64,000 nucleotides of DNA from an uncultured Methylococcaceae bacterium (lineage in GTDB: Bacteria; Pseudomonadota; Gammaproteobacteria; Methylococcales; Methylomonadaceae): contig CAIYRS010000003.1 in the NCBI GenBank assembly GCA_903928685.1, forward strand, positions 1 through 64,000, written 5' to 3'. Both the position numbers and the translations under genes were made by a program. This document shows, piece by piece, positions 24,649 through 31,671 of this stretch. Numbering within the stretch: the stretch's first letter is position 1; each line of letters starts with the position of its first letter. The notes under the pieces were generated by a model. It ran no database searches and was not told the DNA's origin. It saw nothing but the letters and a program-made list of their open reading frames with translations.

Positions 24649-24726
24649 TGTTTTCGCCCAACGGCTAAGCCGGAAAAATCAGAATGATCTGGCACTAGGC
24701 TATTGTTTACTAGAAGGATTAAATCC

Positions 24727-25644
24727 ATGAATCCATTAATCGACAGAAGAAAGTTTTTACAATTGGCAAGCTTAGGGGGCGGTGCGGCCTTCATGTCGGG
24801 TTTGGGCTTTGAGGTGTTGGCTGCCGACCGTTTAAGTGCTGGCGTTGCTGCGGAAGATTTTTATTTTGTGCAATTGTCCGATACCCACTGGGGTTTTAAA
24901 GGCCCAGATAAAAACCCCGATGCTGCTGGCACCTTACAAAAAGCCGTCGCCGCCGTTAACGCTTTGGATAAACAGCCCGATTTTGTGGTGTTTACAGGTG
25001 ATTTGACCCACACCACCGACGATGCTCAAGAACGCCGCCGACGGATGTCGGAGTTTAAAGCCATCGTTAGCGAGCTGAAGGTTAAGCAGATTAAATTTAT
25101 TCCCGGCGAACACGACGCTTCCTTAGATAAAGGCGAAGCTTACCAAGCTTATTTTGGCGATTTGCATTACAGCTTCAACCATAAAGGCATCCATTTCATC
25201 GCCTTGGATAACGTCTCCGATCCTGCCGCGCAACTAGGACTAGCCCAGTTAGACTGGTTAAAAGCCGATTTGCAAGCCTTAGCCGCCAATACCCCAATTG
25301 TGGTGTTAACCCATCGCCCGTTGTTTGATTTATACGCCAAATGGGATTGGACTACCCGCGATGGTCAGCAAGCCATCGATTTGTTGATGGCCTTTGAAAA
25401 CGTCGCGGTTTTTTACGGGCATATCCATCAAGAACATCACCACGTCACCGGGCATATCGTCCATCACGCGGCAAAATCGCTGATTTTCCCATTGCCCGCA
25501 CCCGGTTCTGTGCCGAAACGCGCACCGATACCGTGGAACCCCGCTAAGCCTTACAACGGTTTGGGTTTTAGAAATATCGAAGCCTATCCTTGGAAAAATT
25601 ACCGTCTCGACGAGAAAGCCATCATCTCAGGAGAAACGCTATGA
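24727..25644 (+). CDS. Tat-exported metallophosphoesterase
   Basis: The N-terminus carries a Tat signal (DRRKFLQLASLGGG, residues 6-19). The calcineurin-like site is visible as LSDTHW (D52, H54), FTGDLTH (D92), PGEHD (128-130, with Glu where Asn is usual), THRP and GHIHQEH. Such enzymes cleave phosphate mono- or diesters with a dinuclear metal centre; the substrate is unknown. Tat export suggests the metal is loaded in the cytoplasm. The start is supported by an AAGGA site. The stop overlaps the cupredoxin start by four bases (ATGA), so the two are translationally coupled and probably act together in the periplasm. Confidence 0.85.
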   Translation: MNPLIDRRKFLQLASLGGGAAFMSGLGFEVLAADRLSAGVAAEDFYFVQLSDTHWGFKGPDKNPDAAGTLQKAVAAVNALDKQPDFVVFTGDLTHTTDDAQERRRRMSEFKAIVSELKVKQIKFIPGEHDASLDKGEAYQAYFGDLHYSFNHKGIHFIALDNVSDPAAQLGLAQLDWLKADLQALAANTPIVVLTHRPLFDLYAKWDWTTRDGQQAIDLLMAFENVAVFYGHIHQEHHHVTGHIVHHAAKSLIFPLPAPGSVPKRAPIPWNPAKPYNGLGFRNIEAYPWKNYRLDEKAIISGETL

Positions 25645-25994
25645 AAGCGTATTGGCATAAATGCCTGTTGTGCTTGTTATTGCTGACTCCATTGGCAGCA
25701 ACTGCCAACGCCGAGCCAACGGTTATCGTCATCAAAGCCAGTAAATTCTTATTCCAACCCGCCAAAATCGAGCTGAAAAAAGGCCAAACGGTGATTTTAG
25801 AATTCACCAGCAGCGACAGGCTACACGGCTTTTCGCTACCGGATTTTGCACTGCAAGCCGATATAGAACCAGGCAAAACCACGCGGATTAGCTTTACCCC
25901 CGATAAGGCCGGCACGTTTGTGTTCCGTTGCAGTGTTTTTTGCGGTGATGGCCATGAAGACATGGCGGGGGAGATTGTTGTTAAGGATAGTTAG
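25641..25994 (+). CDS. Periplasmic cupredoxin with CuA-type ligand pattern
   Basis: After a signal peptide (residues 1-24) the 93-residue mature protein is a single cupredoxin domain. It carries H62 (LHGFSLPD), C97, C101, H105 and M108. The C-x3-C-x3-H-x2-M spacing matches the CuA centre of cytochrome oxidase subunit II and nitrous oxide reductase. No oxidase transmembrane hairpin is present, so it may be a soluble electron carrier or copper chaperone. It is coupled to the Tat metallophosphoesterase. Confidence 0.85.
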   Translation: MKAYWHKCLLCLLLLTPLAATANAEPTVIVIKASKFLFQPAKIELKKGQTVILEFTSSDRLHGFSLPDFALQADIEPGKTTRISFTPDKAGTFVFRCSVFCGDGHEDMAGEIVVKDS

Positions 25995-26408: not shown

Positions 26409-26768
26409 GTTAAGGAGCTGCTGAACAAATTTCCTGAAATAAGATAATAACGCATTCGGGTTTTAGTTTTGCGTTGCGTCTGTCGGCGGGAGCTTGGTCC
26501 CGATTATCGGTGCTCCGCTTAGATTTAATGCAAATCGTGCCTAGTGACAAATTGGCCGGCTCCATCATGGCTTTTAGAGTCTTACCAACTTTCAATAATA
26601 TCCCAGTCTGGTATCTTATTGCTTCCTTTAGCTGATAGCGGTCTTTCAAGAGCTTTCTCGGCTTTGGTCTGATTGAAAAAGCTTAAAACTATATCGGCTT
26701 ACCTTCTTCATTTTATATTAGGTGCACTTTGGTATAACCCTGAGTGCCACTTGCCATTTCCCATATCC
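26409..26768. other. 360-base intergenic stretch without a supported gene
   Basis: The only long open frame is on the minus strand (26410-26649, 79 codons). It is basic, has no recognisable domain and shows no clear ribosome site. No inverted-repeat element was seen. The stretch may hold the promoter of the following porin gene. Confidence 0.4.
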
Positions 26769-27503
26769 ATGAATAAACAAGCTTCGTGGCACTTATTTTT
26801 TTATGTTGCCCTGCTTTGTACTCATTGCAACCTAAGCCTTGCCGACCCTCATGCCACCGTCACCCTAACTACTGACAACATCAACAGATGGTTTACTAAA
26901 ACCAACCACAATGTCGCTTTGCAAGCCAATGTTGACTACCAATATGAACGCGGTTTTTTTTTAGGCAGTTCGGTTTCCAATATTGATTACGGACACAAAA
27001 AATACGACAAATCCGCCCATGTCGAAATCATCCCTTATCTGGGATGGAATGTAAATTTGAGCAAACAATGGCGGGCTAACACGCAAATATCACGCTATAT
27101 ATTCGATGGAAAAATGTATGGGCATAACGCCGATTACAACGAATATTATCTGTTTTTACATTACAAAGACTTATTCACTGGCAGAGTTTCTTATGCCGAT
27201 GACTACTACCATTTGAGCAAAGATGCACTGGATTATGAACTGACGGGCAAATATCCACTGAGCAACCAATTTGAATTTTCCACAAGTTTTGGTTACAGCC
27301 AAACCAAAGCGGCACTCAATGCCGATTATCTGTATTGGAACGCGGGTATCACCTATTTTTACAACATTTTTGCTATCGACCTCCGCTATATGGATGCAAC
27401 AGAAAACAATACAAAAGAAAATCTTGTTGAAAAAATGCGTAAAAAATTCGACCTGCCCCTGCTGAACACCAATATTGTCTTGTCTATCTCTGTCGGCTTC
27501 TAA
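26769..27503 (+). CDS. TorF-like putative outer-membrane porin (TIGR02001 type)
   Basis: The 244-aa protein starts with a signal peptide (MNKQASWHLFFYVALLCTHCNLSLA) and continues as alternating beta strands ending in aromatic residues. The segments VDYQYERGFFLGSSVSNIDYG and HVEIIPYLGWNV match the small putative porin family seen in many proteobacteria, and the chain ends in SISVGF with the C-terminal Phe typical of outer-membrane barrels. The start avoids a longer TTG reading from 26673 that would place a stray segment before the signal peptide. It lies upstream of the ECF sigma gene on the same strand. Confidence 0.7.
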   Translation: MNKQASWHLFFYVALLCTHCNLSLADPHATVTLTTDNINRWFTKTNHNVALQANVDYQYERGFFLGSSVSNIDYGHKKYDKSAHVEIIPYLGWNVNLSKQWRANTQISRYIFDGKMYGHNADYNEYYLFLHYKDLFTGRVSYADDYYHLSKDALDYELTGKYPLSNQFEFSTSFGYSQTKAALNADYLYWNAGITYFYNIFAIDLRYMDATENNTKENLVEKMRKKFDLPLLNTNIVLSISVGF

Positions 27504-27628: not shown

Positions 27629-28216
27629 ATGGGACATAGATTGGATAACAAAAACTTCCGCATCAATAATGAAGAAAAAGCCTTACTGTTACGCATCTGT
27701 AATGCCGATCAAGCAGCGCTGGAGCATTTGTACAACAATTATTATCCCCGCCTGTTCCGTTTTATTGGCAGGATCACTTGGCAAGATGACCTGATTGACG
27801 AAATCATCAACGACGTGATGTTTACGGTGTGGGAAAAGGCCAACACCTATAATCACCAATGCCAACTGTCCACATGGATTTTCGGCATCGCCTTCAACAA
27901 AGCCCGTCAAGCGGTACGCAATAGCAACCACGCCAATGAAGATTCGCTGGAAGAAATAGATGCCGATAACGTCGTTTTCGCAAGCCCAGATGCGGGTTTA
28001 AAACAACTGGAAATGACTGATTGGCTAGATTCGGCCTTACAAAAGTTATCGCCAGAACAGCGCGCCGTGATTGAACTGACCTACTTTCAAGGTCTGCACT
28101 ACAGCGAAATTGCCGTGCTGATGGACTGCCCTGAAAATACCGTGAAAACCCGAATGCACTATGCCCGTAAAATTTTAGCGACCCATATTTCGGCAGACGA
28201 ATACGCACCGTTATAG
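27629..28216 (+). CDS. ECF-type RNA polymerase sigma factor
   Basis: The 195-aa protein has sigma region 2 (LEHLYNNYYPRLFRFIGRITW, then DEIINDVMFTVWEKA and STWIFGIAFNKARQ) and region 4 (LSPEQRAVIELTYFQGLHYSEIA, then CPENTVKTRMHYARKIL), with no region 3. It should direct RNA polymerase to a small regulon under control of the adjacent anti-sigma factor, whose gene starts 28 bases downstream. TTGAACC at 27552-27558 resembles an ECF -35 element and may mark autoregulation, but no matching -10 is clear. Confidence 0.92.
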   Translation: MGHRLDNKNFRINNEEKALLLRICNADQAALEHLYNNYYPRLFRFIGRITWQDDLIDEIINDVMFTVWEKANTYNHQCQLSTWIFGIAFNKARQAVRNSNHANEDSLEEIDADNVVFASPDAGLKQLEMTDWLDSALQKLSPEQRAVIELTYFQGLHYSEIAVLMDCPENTVKTRMHYARKILATHISADEYAPL

Positions 28217-28244
28217 CGATACGCCCAACCTGCGAGACTTCAAC

Positions 28245-28937
28245 ATGAATTATCCTGACAACACCCCCTACACAAACCATGAAAAGGTTTTGTTGCTGTT
28301 ACCGTGGCATGTCAACAAAACCTTATCCGGCAAAGAACAGGCTTTGATTGAACAACACTTAAAAGTTTGCCTGACCTGCAAACGCGAACTCAACAACCTG
28401 CAAACTTTAGCGGCTGCTGTTAAACAAAGCGAAACCTACAATACGGCTAATCCTGCGCCGCATGCAGCCTTTGCACAATTGCAAATGCGCCTGGAAAACC
28501 CCAACAATCTGCCAGCAGCCAACGCGCCAACCAAGCAACGGCAAATTAAATTAAAAAGTTATAAATTATCCGCCTTAGCCGCCAGCGTGATGATTATGGT
28601 GATGTTGCCCAATATGAACACTCTCAACAATATGCTGGGCAATGACTACCGCACTTTGTCCAATGCCGAACCCAGCAGCACACCGCCACACGCGCTTAAA
28701 GTGATTTTTAAGGCCGAAACTGGGGCGCAAACCATCGCGCAAATCTTAGCATCTGTTGAAGGCCATGTTATCGACGGCCCAAACGAACGAGCACTGTACA
28801 CCATAGGCTTTAAGCAAACCGATGCCGATACGCTGAAAGACAAATTAGTAGCCTTAAGAAAACGCCCCGATGTCATCTTTGCAGAGCCGTCTTACGACCT
28901 TGCCGCCAACCCCTCATCCCAAAAGGCAAAGCCATGA
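28245..28937 (+). CDS. Membrane anti-sigma factor with subtilase-propeptide-like C-terminal domain
   Basis: Residues 14-50 form a zinc-binding anti-sigma domain with H38-x3-C42-x2-C45. A single membrane helix lies at about 108-124. The exported part (about 150-218) reads LKVIFKAETGAQTIAQIL, then VEGHVIDGPNERALYTIGF and RPDVIFAEPSYD. That pattern, with a closing V-x-x-AEPxY, is the look of subtilisin propeptides (I9/fervidolysin-like), which fold on and inhibit the protease. The next gene, overlapping by four bases, encodes a subtilase. A periplasmic protease-binding domain on an anti-sigma factor suggests direct coupling of protease state to sigma release; this is inferred. Confidence 0.8.
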   Translation: MNYPDNTPYTNHEKVLLLLPWHVNKTLSGKEQALIEQHLKVCLTCKRELNNLQTLAAAVKQSETYNTANPAPHAAFAQLQMRLENPNNLPAANAPTKQRQIKLKSYKLSALAASVMIMVMLPNMNTLNNMLGNDYRTLSNAEPSSTPPHALKVIFKAETGAQTIAQILASVEGHVIDGPNERALYTIGFKQTDADTLKDKLVALRKRPDVIFAEPSYDLAANPSSQKAKP

Positions 28938-30265
28938 AAGCGGCGGCGGTTTTTCAATGCCTATTGTTAACAGTGGCGTGTTTATTGGCGATGCCTTTAA
29001 AAAGCGAAGGCATCAGCGCGAAAACCTATGAAACCTCGCCGCTTTACAATAAAAACAACGCCGACCATCTGCTCTTGGTGGCCTTCAAAGATGCGTCCAT
29101 TAAAAGGATGCCCAATACCGCCACTGGTTATCGGCAGCGCGGTAGTTACAGCAGCTCAACATGGAGCGAAGAAGTCAGCGAGCAAATCGCCCATGACTAT
29201 CATCTGCAAAAACTCACCGAATGGCCGATGACCGAAGTGGGCGTGCATTGCGTGGTTTACCAAGTGGCATTGAATGAATCAGTCGCTGATACTTTAAAAA
29301 ACTTGTCGCAAGACCAGCGCGTGGACATTGCCCAAACCATGCACGTGTTCAACACCAAAACCCATGAAGGCAACGACCCGTACCACACGCTACAAGCCAA
29401 TCTGCAAAGCATGCACATTGACCAAGCGCACCGCACAGCCACGGGCAAAAACATCACCATCGCCATGATTGATACGGGCGTGGATAGGCAGCATCCGGAT
29501 TTGTCGGGGCAAATCAGCCAAAACGAAAACTTTGCCGAAGGCATTTCCGCCAGTTTTGACAACGACAAACACGGCACGGCGGTCGCAGGCGTGATGATTG
29601 CCAAAAAGGACAACGGCATTGGCATCGTCGGCATTGCCCCCGATGCCAGACTTATCGCCCTAAAAGCCTGCTGGCCTGACAGCGACGATACTATGTCAGC
29701 GGCCTGTAACAGCTTTACCTTGGCCTTAGCGGTAAATGCCGCCATCAAATCGGGGGCGGACATTTTGAATATGAGCCTAAGCGGTCCGCAGGATCCAATT
29801 TTGGAATTGTTGCTGAACAAAGCCATTGCCGAAGGCATGATTGTAGTTGCCGCCGATAACGGCCAATCGAGCAAAGAAAGCAATTTTCCGGCCTCGATGC
29901 CGAATGTGATTTCCGTGCAATCTTGCCAACCTGCCGCCAATGCCGCGCAAAACATTAGCGCGCCGGGCGACAAAATCCTCACCACCCTGCCGCATAGCAC
30001 TTACGACTTCATTTCCGGCAGCTCCATTTCCGCCGCCGAAGTATCGGGTATTATTGCCTTGTTATTGGAACTGAAAGGCGATTTGAGCATTGCCGAAGCC
30101 AAAACCCTGTTGCAACAAGCCACGCTTGGCATTTTAGCTAATATTAACGCTAACCAAGCGGTCTCAGCTTTATGTATGCAGACCCATTGCCCATCTGAAA
30201 ACGTATCCTTAGCACATAAAATCCTCGATTGGCCCAACAAGTCCTTTGCTAACGCCTTTAATTAA
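28934..30265 (+). CDS. Exported S8 (subtilisin-like) serine peptidase
   Basis: A signal peptide covers residues 1-25. Residues about 45-140 look like a second propeptide-type region (HLLLVAFKDASI...VVYQVAL). The catalytic domain has D180 (MIDTGVD), H213 (KHGTAVAG), oxyanion N309 (AADNG) and S364 (SGSSISAAEVSG). The usual GTSMAAPHV around Ser is altered: Thr to Ser, and the AAPH part to SAAE. The four catalytic positions are kept, so activity is likely. It ends with a short Cys-containing tail. It is translationally coupled to the anti-sigma gene, which argues for a joint regulatory role. Confidence 0.9.
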   Translation: MKAAAVFQCLLLTVACLLAMPLKSEGISAKTYETSPLYNKNNADHLLLVAFKDASIKRMPNTATGYRQRGSYSSSTWSEEVSEQIAHDYHLQKLTEWPMTEVGVHCVVYQVALNESVADTLKNLSQDQRVDIAQTMHVFNTKTHEGNDPYHTLQANLQSMHIDQAHRTATGKNITIAMIDTGVDRQHPDLSGQISQNENFAEGISASFDNDKHGTAVAGVMIAKKDNGIGIVGIAPDARLIALKACWPDSDDTMSAACNSFTLALAVNAAIKSGADILNMSLSGPQDPILELLLNKAIAEGMIVVAADNGQSSKESNFPASMPNVISVQSCQPAANAAQNISAPGDKILTTLPHSTYDFISGSSISAAEVSGIIALLLELKGDLSIAEAKTLLQQATLGILANINANQAVSALCMQTHCPSENVSLAHKILDWPNKSFANAFN

Positions 30266-30314
30266 CAATCACACCATTAATTAAAGTCATACCTTGAACC
30301 ATTAACCCAAGATC

Positions 30315-30376
30315 GGGAATTAAAAGGAAGGCAGGCATTGTTTGTAATTCATTAACAACTCGCCTGCCTAATTCCC
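30315..30376. terminator. Two-step stem-loop after the protease gene
   Basis: GGGAATT with AATTCCC and, inside, GGCAGGC with GCCTGCC form two stacked 7-bp stems with a long AT-rich loop. The structure lies between the S8 gene and the FG-GAP gene. It may terminate the sigma operon or sit in the leader of the next gene. Confidence 0.45.
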
Positions 30377-30420: not shown

Positions 30421-31671
30421 ATGAATACAAAATACGCATTAGCTATAAATACCAGCGCCAGCAGCCGTCGTCGGTTATTACCCGCAGCCATCTGCGCATT
30501 ATTGGCAATAGGCATCAGTGCACCCACATTTGCCGGAACACTGAGCTTTAAAGCCAGCAAAATCTATCCACTTGGCCCTGCTGCCGTCGGCATTGATGTA
30601 GCGGACATTAACAACGACGGCAAACAAGATGTGATTGGTGCTGACAAAGTTAACGGCTCGTTAAGCATCCTGTTTGGTAAGGGCGATGGCACATTCGCCC
30701 GTAGAATCAATTATCCTGAAACCGCGTTCAGCTTAAATAACCCTGACATTCGTTTCCTAAAAATCATTGCCAAAGATGTTAGCCCGCTGTTTCCAGGTGT
30801 TGAAGTCAACGTATTAACTAACGGTCAAATTTCCCAGCTGAACTTAATACAACGCCCACAAGATCCTCCTCAGGGTATTTTGGTCGGCTTTGATGGCACT
30901 ACAAGTGGTGACCTAGTTGATTTTGCCGTAGAAGATTTCAACCACGATGGCATCTTCGATGAAGCTAGCGCTTCGTCACAAGGATTTTTTGAAGTGGATT
31001 TGCGTGGTAAAAACCATCAATTTGGTTTGAATAGCAAGCATATTTATGATGGCGGACAGGTCTCAGTCAAGAGTATGCTGACTGGCGACATCAACCTCGA
31101 TAGTCATATCGACATCATCACCTTAGACAGACAAGCTGCGCAAATGAACGTCTCACTAGGCAAACGTGATGGCAGCTACCCAACCAAAACGGCTTATCGC
31201 GCGCCCATTGGGATAGACGATGCCACCATTGCCGACCTCAACAAAGACGGCAAGCCCGACGTGATAATGACTAGCGCACAACATAACGGTGGTGGTATTA
31301 GCCTGTTTTTGGGCAATGGCAAAGGCGGATTTAAAACGCCTAAAGAATTCGCTGCCAAAAGTGCCAGCCAACGCCCCAGCCACTTAGCGATAAGCGACCT
31401 CAACGCCGACGGCAATATGGACGTAGTTGTATCATTCCTAGATAACACCGTAGGTAGCAGATTTAGCGGCAGCAACGAACTGGGCGTATTTTTAGGCAAC
31501 GGCGACGGCACTTTTCAACCCAATACCAACCTTATCGTCGGCAATTTGCCGGATACCTCCACTGAACCAGGCCAAATTGTCATCAAAGATGTCAATCAGG
31601 ACGGTAAACCGGATGTACTGGTCGCCACCGTTTCTGGCGTAGCGGTGTTGTTAAATACTAATACCTTGTAA
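30421..31671 (+). CDS. Exported FG-GAP/VCBS repeat protein
   Basis: The 416-aa protein has a long signal peptide (about 1-39, with an SSRRR basic start and cleavage after FAG) and at least six calcium-binding D-x-N-x-D-G motifs (DINNDGKQD, DFNHDGIFD, DLNKDGKPD, DLNADGNMD, DVNQDGKPD and a weaker DINLDSHID). These repeats build a beta-propeller used in adhesion or extracellular binding. AAAGGA 9 bases before the ATG supports the start. Its place right after the sigma/anti-sigma/protease operon makes it a candidate regulon member or protease target. Confidence 0.85.
   Translation: MNTKYALAINTSASSRRRLLPAAICALLAIGISAPTFAGTLSFKASKIYPLGPAAVGIDVADINNDGKQDVIGADKVNGSLSILFGKGDGTFARRINYPETAFSLNNPDIRFLKIIAKDVSPLFPGVEVNVLTNGQISQLNLIQRPQDPPQGILVGFDGTTSGDLVDFAVEDFNHDGIFDEASASSQGFFEVDLRGKNHQFGLNSKHIYDGGQVSVKSMLTGDINLDSHIDIITLDRQAAQMNVSLGKRDGSYPTKTAYRAPIGIDDATIADLNKDGKPDVIMTSAQHNGGGISLFLGNGKGGFKTPKEFAAKSASQRPSHLAISDLNADGNMDVVVSFLDNTVGSRFSGSNELGVFLGNGDGTFQPNTNLIVGNLPDTSTEPGQIVIKDVNQDGKPDVLVATVSGVAVLLNTNTL

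Follow-up and report, generated by a model that had tools for sequence, protein, structure and literature searches.

Subtilase propeptides, such as the N-terminal propeptides of fervidolysin and subtilisin (Pfam PF22148; I9-type fold), bind and inhibit their protease and serve as folding helpers within one protein. In FecI-FecR-FecA type signalling, an ECF sigma factor is combined with a membrane anti-sigma factor having a periplasmic part and with a linked outer-membrane protein gene that encodes a TonB-dependent transporter. In the RpoE-RseA system, the membrane anti-sigma factor is released by proteolysis via DegS and RseP (PMC8103513). RseA is covered by RseB, while RsgI senses the substrate of the enzymes that it controls. 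In ECF54, subtilase and CHAT genes are found in the sigma neighbourhood (PMC8999054). Here we analysed a window of 64,000 nucleotides from an uncultured Methylococcaceae bacterium (GenBank assembly GCA_903928685.1, contig CAIYRS010000003.1, positions 1 to 64,000 of the forward strand), in which an anti-sigma factor with a propeptide-like outer domain is encoded beside an S8 (subtilase) protein. Our limited literature searches showed no description of this arrangement (related passages in PMC8999054, PMC8103513 and PMC7406223), although a mention of this neighbourhood in the ECF re-classification paper (10.1093/nar/gkaa1229) is not excluded.

A preliminary description made from the sequence alone had noted three tightly packed genes for an ECF sigma factor, an anti-sigma factor and an exported subtilase, the last two overlapping by four bases, and an anti-sigma factor with an HxxxCxxC domain, one membrane helix and a periplasmic domain ending in V-x-x-AEPxY, as subtilisin propeptides do. 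We confirmed this observation. The overlap is ATGA (28934-28937), and the sigma and anti-sigma genes are 28 bases apart. The features of the locus are listed in the table.

Features of the locus, with positions in the 64,000-nucleotide window
Position	Strand	Feature	Basis
26673-27503	+	TorF/Gcw_chp-family putative outer-membrane porin, fourth member of the cassette (start codon uncertain)	NCBIfam TIGR02001, E 1.2e-23, 83.9 bits, above its cut-off; Pfam PF09694, the only match in this genome
27551-27584	+	Promoter-like site before sigma, ATTGAACCTTTT...ACAATGGAC (self-regulation inferred)	22.9 bits; in the motif training set
27629-28216	+	ECF sigma factor (195 aa)	TIGR02937 sigma70-ECF, E 5.8e-26, above cut-off; Sigma70_r4_2, E 7.1e-17; Sigma70_r2, E 1e-7
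28245-28937	+	Anti-sigma factor (230 aa)	Translation; AlphaFold2 model
28278-28388	+	Cytoplasmic zinc anti-sigma domain, residues 12-48, H38-x3-C42-x2-C45	zf-HC2, E 9e-4, 19.8 bits, just under its cut-off of 22.2; H38, C42 and C45 invariant in 18 aligned sequences, window included; helical in the model, block-mean pLDDT 92-97 for residues 11-60
28569-28631	+	Probable membrane helix, residues 109-129	Helix in the model at low to middling confidence; hydrophobic and called membrane-spanning by eye
28683-28895	+	Propeptide-like outer domain, residues 147-217, ending VIFAEPS	Predicted βαββαβ; PF22148 across the family; structural match to pro-subtilisin E, tied with others
28934-30265	+	Exported S8 (subtilase) protein, 443 aa, signal sequence by eye	PF00082, E 1.7e-34, the only match in this genome; D180, H213 and S364 conserved
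29063-29353	+	Prodomain-like N-terminal domain of the S8 protein, residues about 44-140	Superposition of a relative's model on pro-subtilisins
29444-30124	+	S8 catalytic domain, residues 171-397	PF00082
30293-30326	+	Second promoter-like site, CTTGAACCATTAACCCAAGATCGGGAATTAAAAG	27.2 bits; not in the training set
30421-31671	+	Exported FG-GAP-repeat protein, predicted target of the sigma factor	FG-GAP_3, E 4.9e-31; starts 128 nt downstream of the start of the second site

The anti-sigma factor ends in V-I-F-A-E-P-S-Y plus 13 residues. In the AlphaFold2 model, residues of about 147-217 adopt a βαββαβ arrangement, with block-mean pLDDT values of 92-98 for residues 151-210. For the window protein alone, the best Pfam model of this domain is PF22148 (Fervidolysin_NPro-like), with an E-value of 0.004 and 17.9 bits, which is below the curated cut-off of 21. 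Across the family, however, 29 of the 63 members scanned (window included) match PF22148 at E 0.01 or better, where every other family matches at most 1, and 45 of 63 match at E 1 or better, where every other family matches at most 2; the best member reaches 2.1e-6. Inhibitor I9 was not among the families shown in either scan. The last strand contains Glu in 89 of 106 aligned sequences. The fold agrees with the profile match: pro-subtilisin E heads the structural list, with a middling Z of 8.3 and an rmsd of 2.1 Å over 62 residues, but it is tied with unrelated ferredoxin-like proteins, the next at 8.2. Foldseek on the anti-sigma model gave no match at E 0.001 or better and mixed ACT, ribosomal S6 and propeptide folds, and a profile search of the domain against the sequences of solved structures found nothing credible (best E 0.36).

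From the protease side, 74 of 80 loci have the anti-sigma domain directly upstream, 65 of 80 also have sigma, and 63 of 80 hold a TorF relative, found by a profile built from the window gene and nine neighbours, in four arrangements with varying order and strand. These loci come from methanotrophs, including the named strain Methylomonas sp. LW13, as well as Nitrosomonas, Dyella, Burkholderiales and Acidobacteriota. They are the best 80 of 503 confirmed relatives, and a second set of 30 loci was likewise limited to the best; since both sets are ranked by similarity and hold near relatives, the counts are not independent samples. Genomes present twice (8 loci; 9 to 11 in two reference lists) were dropped from the profile-profile comparison and from the tail, lipobox, co-divergence, signal-sequence, catalytic-residue and oxyanion-hole counts given below, but not from the 80-locus counts. 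From the anti-sigma side, 17 of 22 loci with the domain (window included) have an S8 gene within 1.5 kb, against 0 of 8 without it (Fisher p 2e-4); leaving out four loci cut by contig ends, the figures are 17 of 21 against 0 of 5 (p 0.002). The propeptide profile match and the conserved gene linkage had both been named in advance as tests of the preliminary description, and both held.

There are exceptions to this linkage. Two nearly complete genomes (G372 and G151) have the anti-sigma domain but no S8 gene, and in genome G029 a weak form of the domain (17 bits) is followed by a caspase-type protease instead. Together with the widespread fold and the tied structural match, these cases leave room for the outer domain being a ferredoxin-like sensor for something else, with the S8 gene a neighbour kept in the operon for other reasons. 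We consider this the least likely of the explanations entertained here, because the family matches a subtilase propeptide model and hardly any other, and because the domain goes with S8 neighbours.

The co-divergence of the outer domain was strongest with the S8 catalytic domain (partial r 0.27), compared with sigma (0.18), its own zinc domain (0.09) and the S8 prodomain (0.05). These values are not corrected for phylogeny, and in two of four random halves the outer domain follows sigma as well as or better than the S8 catalytic domain (0.21 against 0.20 and 0.31 against 0.24). A first joined alignment misplaced the anti-sigma fragments and was dropped, and a second without them was not used.

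The S8 protein carries its own prodomain. In the model of a relative (L003), this domain and the enzyme together superpose on pro-subtilisins over the range 148-530, with about 325 residues aligned and a Z of about 36, against about 250 residues for mature enzymes. In this joined-chain model, the S8's own N-domain, not the anti-sigma domain, lies in the propeptide position. Pfam propeptide models hardly see it (3 of 49 and 2 of 49 at E 1). We considered whether the S8 N-domain and the anti-sigma domain are recent duplicates and rejected this, since their profiles are only weakly alike (hhalign local probability 53 percent, E 1.3e-4 for the single comparison; global mode 5 percent). A mycosin label for the S8 protein was also rejected (TIGR03921, 144 bits against a cut-off of 279). 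Unlike a propeptide, the anti-sigma domain is encoded by a separate gene, and no ORF listed in the survey carried both the anti-sigma domain and the S8 domain. Judged from aligned ranges, a C-terminal tail of roughly 7 residues would be needed to reach the active site; 64 of 93 tails beside close S8s have them, while 29 of 93 beside close S8s and 8 of 8 beside distant S8s look too short.

The Asp and His of the catalytic triad are kept in 99 of 99 close relatives and the Ser in the 93 that have sequence there, window included, which suggests that catalysis still matters. In contrast, 87 of 99 close S8s have no Asn in the six-residue oxyanion-hole stretch, where an Asn is usual but not universal. 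In the aligned column, 5 of 99 have Asn and the commonest residue is Pro (39 of 99). The window protein is one of those with an Asn, one residue earlier than the Gly-Asn that distant partners keep. Short tails and a poor oxyanion hole make a classical tight inhibitor complex unlikely in many members. The poor oxyanion hole fits a shield model, in which the S8 protein would be mainly a binding partner rather than a cutter, covering the anti-sigma factor as RseB covers RseA, so that its loss would expose the anti-sigma factor to a general site-1 protease. In addition, 49 of 99 close S8s have a lipobox-like N-terminus by a crude rule that also fires on the window protein, so some may stay anchored near the membrane. 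However, the conserved triad and the Gly-Asn of the distant partners speak against this model, and we regard it as unlikely, though ahead of the other alternatives.

A TGAAC-centred, promoter-like motif (TTGAACCTTTT...GGAAT) lies 40-140 nt upstream of sigma in 64 of 85 loci. The second site in the table is one of two over threshold in the window, and it is the only perfect match in this genome to a consensus pattern, which was written after this site had been seen; the eight other matches to the pattern had 3 mismatches, against 14 matches in the control. With a two-mismatch pattern, the hits in the genome (46) were fewer than in the reversed control (80) and were ignored. A dyad search upstream of TorF gave at most 5 of 62 loci, against 3-4 in shuffles. 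Of the non-sigma ORFs after such sites, 15 of 17 have a crude signal sequence, against 94 of 368 nearby ORFs; the 17 were picked from 24 after seven sigma or anti-sigma frames had been taken out by eye, and eleven motif sites had no ORF of 70 aa or more within 330 nt. As far as these pattern searches show, the sigma factor would control its own operon and one exported protein in the window's genome. The S8 gene follows sigma and anti-sigma behind a site of this motif, and the predicted targets are mostly exported, which would suit a product-sensing model in which the S8 protein is a target or processing protease of the exported regulon and the anti-sigma factor measures free S8 protein as feedback, much as RsgI senses the substrate of the enzymes that it controls. 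Such a model explains neither the TorF linkage nor the weakened oxyanion hole, and seems improbable to us.

The preliminary description had further inferred that the anti-sigma factor may hold the S8 protease in an inhibited complex, with loss or activation of the protease leading to cleavage of the anti-sigma factor and release of the sigma factor, as a self-contained switch. This interpretation is only partly supported: the propeptide-like character of the domain and the three-gene linkage agree with it, whereas the S8's own prodomain, the short tails, the poor oxyanion hole and the genomes without an S8 gene do not, and "self-contained" misses a porin gene and a second promoter-like site. 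In our view the locus is a conserved envelope-signalling cassette of TorF porin, ECF sigma factor, membrane anti-sigma factor and exported S8 subtilase. What the analysis itself establishes is the anatomy, the profile match of the outer domain, the gene linkage and the shared promoter-like motif. The remainder is inference, including binding and inhibition of the sigma factor and any inhibition or folding of the S8 protein by the outer domain: the module plausibly docks on the partner S8 protein, competing with or succeeding that protein's own prodomain, so that the state of the S8 protein (immature, engaged or active at the envelope) would decide whether the anti-sigma factor is cut, by the S8 protein itself or by another protease that it gates. 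Cutting would free the sigma factor, which would then transcribe its own operon and, in this genome, the exported FG-GAP protein. We hold this explanation to be about as likely as not.

A more far-reaching possibility, which we put forward only as doubtful, is that a protease propeptide has become the receptor domain of an anti-sigma factor, so that maturation or occupancy of an envelope subtilase is itself the signal. In this view, the subtilase's own prodomain and the anti-sigma domain would compete for one site, and a TorF porin at the outer membrane would trigger the exchange, giving a porin-subtilase-anti-sigma relay distinct from FecA-FecR-FecI and DegS-RseA. If the domain binds the subtilase, a propeptide would have been reused as the sensor of a transcription switch, and signal, protease and output would be open to study in one small system with a candidate promoter motif. 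The cassette also offers a functional setting for the TorF/Gcw_chp family, which Pfam lists as of unknown function.

Compared with the described systems, the anti-sigma factor has the Hx3Cx2C motif in an N-terminal helical domain and the neighbouring ECF sigma gene of zinc-type (class I) anti-sigma factors. Compared with fervidolysin and subtilisin propeptides, the outer domain has the predicted βαββαβ fold and, family-wide, the sequence profile, but it sits at the C-terminus of a membrane anti-sigma factor, in a separate chain from a protease that has its own prodomain as well, and its tail is often short. As in ECF54 (PMC8999054), a subtilase gene lies in the sigma neighbourhood. As in RpoE-RseA with DegS/RseP (PMC8103513), a membrane anti-sigma factor is expected, by inference here, to be released by proteolysis in two steps, but the candidate partner protease is subtilase-type and co-encoded, and no PDZ domain was hit in it. 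As in FecI-FecR-FecA, an ECF sigma factor, a membrane anti-sigma factor with a periplasmic part and an outer-membrane protein gene are linked, but the outer-membrane partner is a TorF-type putative porin instead of a TonB-dependent transporter, the anti-sigma factor has no FecR hit, and an S8 gene is part of the unit.

The preliminary description had reported a tightly packed operon of three genes, sigma factor, anti-sigma factor and S8 protease, and this observation held: the three genes lie where they had been placed, with the stop codon of the anti-sigma gene and the start codon of the S8 gene sharing the sequence ATGA. The anti-sigma factor contains a zinc-type N-terminal domain, a hydrophobic helix and an outer domain that is modelled as βαββαβ, with a block-mean pLDDT of 92-98 in its confident stretch. 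The positions of the individual features are collected in the table below.

Positions of the features in the window and in two related loci
Feature	Position	Remarks
Hydrophobic helix of the anti-sigma factor	residues 109-129	
Outer domain of the anti-sigma factor, stretch with block-mean pLDDT 92-98	residues 151-210	modelled as βαββαβ
Second promoter-like site	window 30293-30326	before an exported FG-GAP-repeat protein
Cys106 of the S8 protein	window 29249-29251	in the protein's own prodomain
Metallophosphoesterase with a possible twin-arginine signal, followed by a cupredoxin/COX2-like protein	window 24703-25994	
Sigma and anti-sigma followed by a caspase-type peptidase C14 with a Sel1 repeat	L135:1868-4478	genome G029; weak form of the outer domain; no subtilase in this place
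One reading frame matching both sigma and the zinc domain, next to a further sigma piece and a full anti-sigma gene	L083:1-1508	perhaps a frameshift or a broken duplicate

We searched 61 genomes, including that of the window, and found a match to the anti-sigma factor in 17 of them. Of the 19 loci examined from these genomes (L003-L021), 17 have the S8 gene downstream and 17 have the sigma gene upstream; L004 and L018 lack S8 in the stretch examined, and L011 and L017 lack sigma, near contig ends. When the survey was made from the S8 side, 74 of 80 loci have the anti-sigma domain directly upstream, and 65 of 80 have both this domain and sigma. The six loci without the domain upstream are L075 and L121, in which none was found; L095, in which it lies nearby on the other strand; L120, in which it is separated; L114, which has an anti-sigma gene without a detected domain; and L118, which is at a contig edge. 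In the class-wide search, 17 of 22 loci with the domain (window included) have an S8 gene within 1.5 kb, in contrast to 0 of 8 anti-sigma loci without the domain. One of the 22 and three of the 8 are cut by contig ends, and without them the counts are 17 of 21 against 0 of 5 (p 0.002). Of the five exceptions, L037 has little contig left, whereas the genomes G372 and G151 (loci L027 and L038, also L132 and L133) keep a well-kept outer domain in the anti-sigma factor but have no S8 gene in the genome. In genome G029 (L051, also L135), the caspase-type protease is next door and an S8 is located elsewhere, and genome G359 (L041) has S8 genes elsewhere.

The gene before sigma in the window encodes a TorF/Gcw_chp-family putative porin and is a fourth member of the unit. 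Using a profile built from this gene and nine neighbours, we found a relative in 63 of the 80 loci of the S8 survey, and in 53 of the 61 loci with at least 3.4 kb before and 1.5 kb after the S8 catalytic domain; the other eight loci with enough flank have no TorF relative. The relative is upstream on the same strand in 48 loci, downstream on the same strand in 8, and on the other strand in 7. The window genome has one PF09694 and one PF00082 match, both situated here. The changed order with kept linkage argues for a functional tie, although it does not distinguish whether the porin would act as a sensor, a target or an export route.

A dyad, TGAAC-N16-GGAA, lies upstream of sigma in 26 of 85 loci, against at most 4 for any such dyad in shuffled sequences, and a TGAAC 40-140 nt upstream is found in 64 of 85. 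A matrix built from these 64 finds 72 sites in 718 kb (window plus 80 loci) and none in one mononucleotide and one dinucleotide shuffle. Of the 72 sites, 43 are before sigma and are partly training sites, and 29 are elsewhere, two of which (in L074 and L108) probably belong to sigma too. The window has two sites, one before sigma and the second site listed in the table. In the whole genome, a consensus pattern, which was written after the second site had been seen, has this site as its one perfect match, and the remaining matches have 3 mismatches, at background level. Elsewhere, 17 ORFs other than sigma (the window's included) follow such sites, and 15 of these have a crude signal sequence, against 94 of 368 neighbouring ORFs; they include RTX-repeat, collagen-like, TIGR03118 and InlB-repeat proteins. 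However, eleven sites had no ORF of 70 aa within 330 nt. In 11 Nitrosomonas-type loci (L059, L060, L062, L063, L064, L068 and L069, and also L061, L067, L086 and L089), a short ORF of roughly 30-45 aa by eye, on the minus strand and divergent from TorF, ends in or near G[VLM]GGTG with synonymous codon changes by eye, and in seven of the eleven it lies about 160 nt after a strong sigma motif. Shuffled loci gave 2 such ends and the real ones 12; the ORF may encode a small peptide of the regulon. The system looks like one that controls envelope or surface proteins.

In the S8 protein, the catalytic Asp and His are kept in 99 of 99 close relatives, and the Ser in the 93 with sequence there. In addition, Cys106 is kept in 98 of 99 close relatives, and Cys246 and Cys258 are kept in 99 of 99. 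In contrast, the oxyanion-hole stretch has no Asn in 87 of 99 close relatives; the window protein is one of the 12 that has one, located one residue earlier than in a second, more distant set of S8 partners. This distant set of sigma/anti-sigma/S8 triads (L029, L031, L033, L035, L036 and L039) has an anti-sigma domain without the AEP tail, and its S8 proteins keep Gly-Asn at the oxyanion place (six in the alignment, and two more at the ends of truncated ORFs). One of the three distant partners scanned, in L036, has a TIG domain.

We compared the divergence of the outer domain with that of other domains across 84 loci, and obtained a partial r of 0.27 with the S8 catalytic domain, 0.18 with sigma, 0.09 with its own zinc domain and 0.05 with the S8 prodomain. 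In four random halves the S8 value is 0.20-0.34, but in two of them sigma is equal or higher; without phylogenetic correction, this coupling is suggestive only. The best reading is that the anti-sigma domain docks on the S8 protein at, or in exchange with, the propeptide site, with the state of the S8 protein deciding the release of sigma; both the docking and the steps after it are inferred. The interpretation of the preliminary description, a stable inhibited complex of the anti-sigma factor with the protease, is only partly supported and represents one version of this reading, whereas the shield, product-sensing and unrelated-sensor models remain open.

Comparisons of the outer domain with known subtilase propeptides rest mainly on the sequence profile. 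For the window protein alone, the match to the fervidolysin prodomain (PF22148) is under the curated cut-off (17.9 bits against 21), but across the family it is clear: of 63 members (window included), 29 match this model at E 0.01 or better while every other family matches at most 1, and 45 match at E 1 while every other family matches at most 2. Structural comparison lists pro-subtilisin E first (Z 8.3, 62 residues, 2.1 Å), but by the rule of the method this is tied with other ferredoxin-like proteins (next 8.2), and such values are common for unmatched models; the sequence profile is the stronger argument. The S8 protein also carries its own N-terminal domain. In the joined-chain model of L003, a related locus, about 325 residues from 148 to 530 superpose on pro-subtilisins at Z about 36, against about 250 residues for mature enzymes, so this domain occupies the usual propeptide place in the model. 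Pfam propeptide models barely recognise it (PF22148 in 3 of 49 and S8_pro-domain in 2 of 49 at E 1), and an unrelated model, ORF_2_N, reached 7 of 49. In the case of the anti-sigma tails, those beside distant S8s end 0-2 residues after the aligned Pro position (8 of 8). Judged from the aligned ranges of 3whi and 1spb, roughly seven residues are needed to reach the cleavage position, so a plug-like tail is possible in 64 of 93 members beside close S8s.
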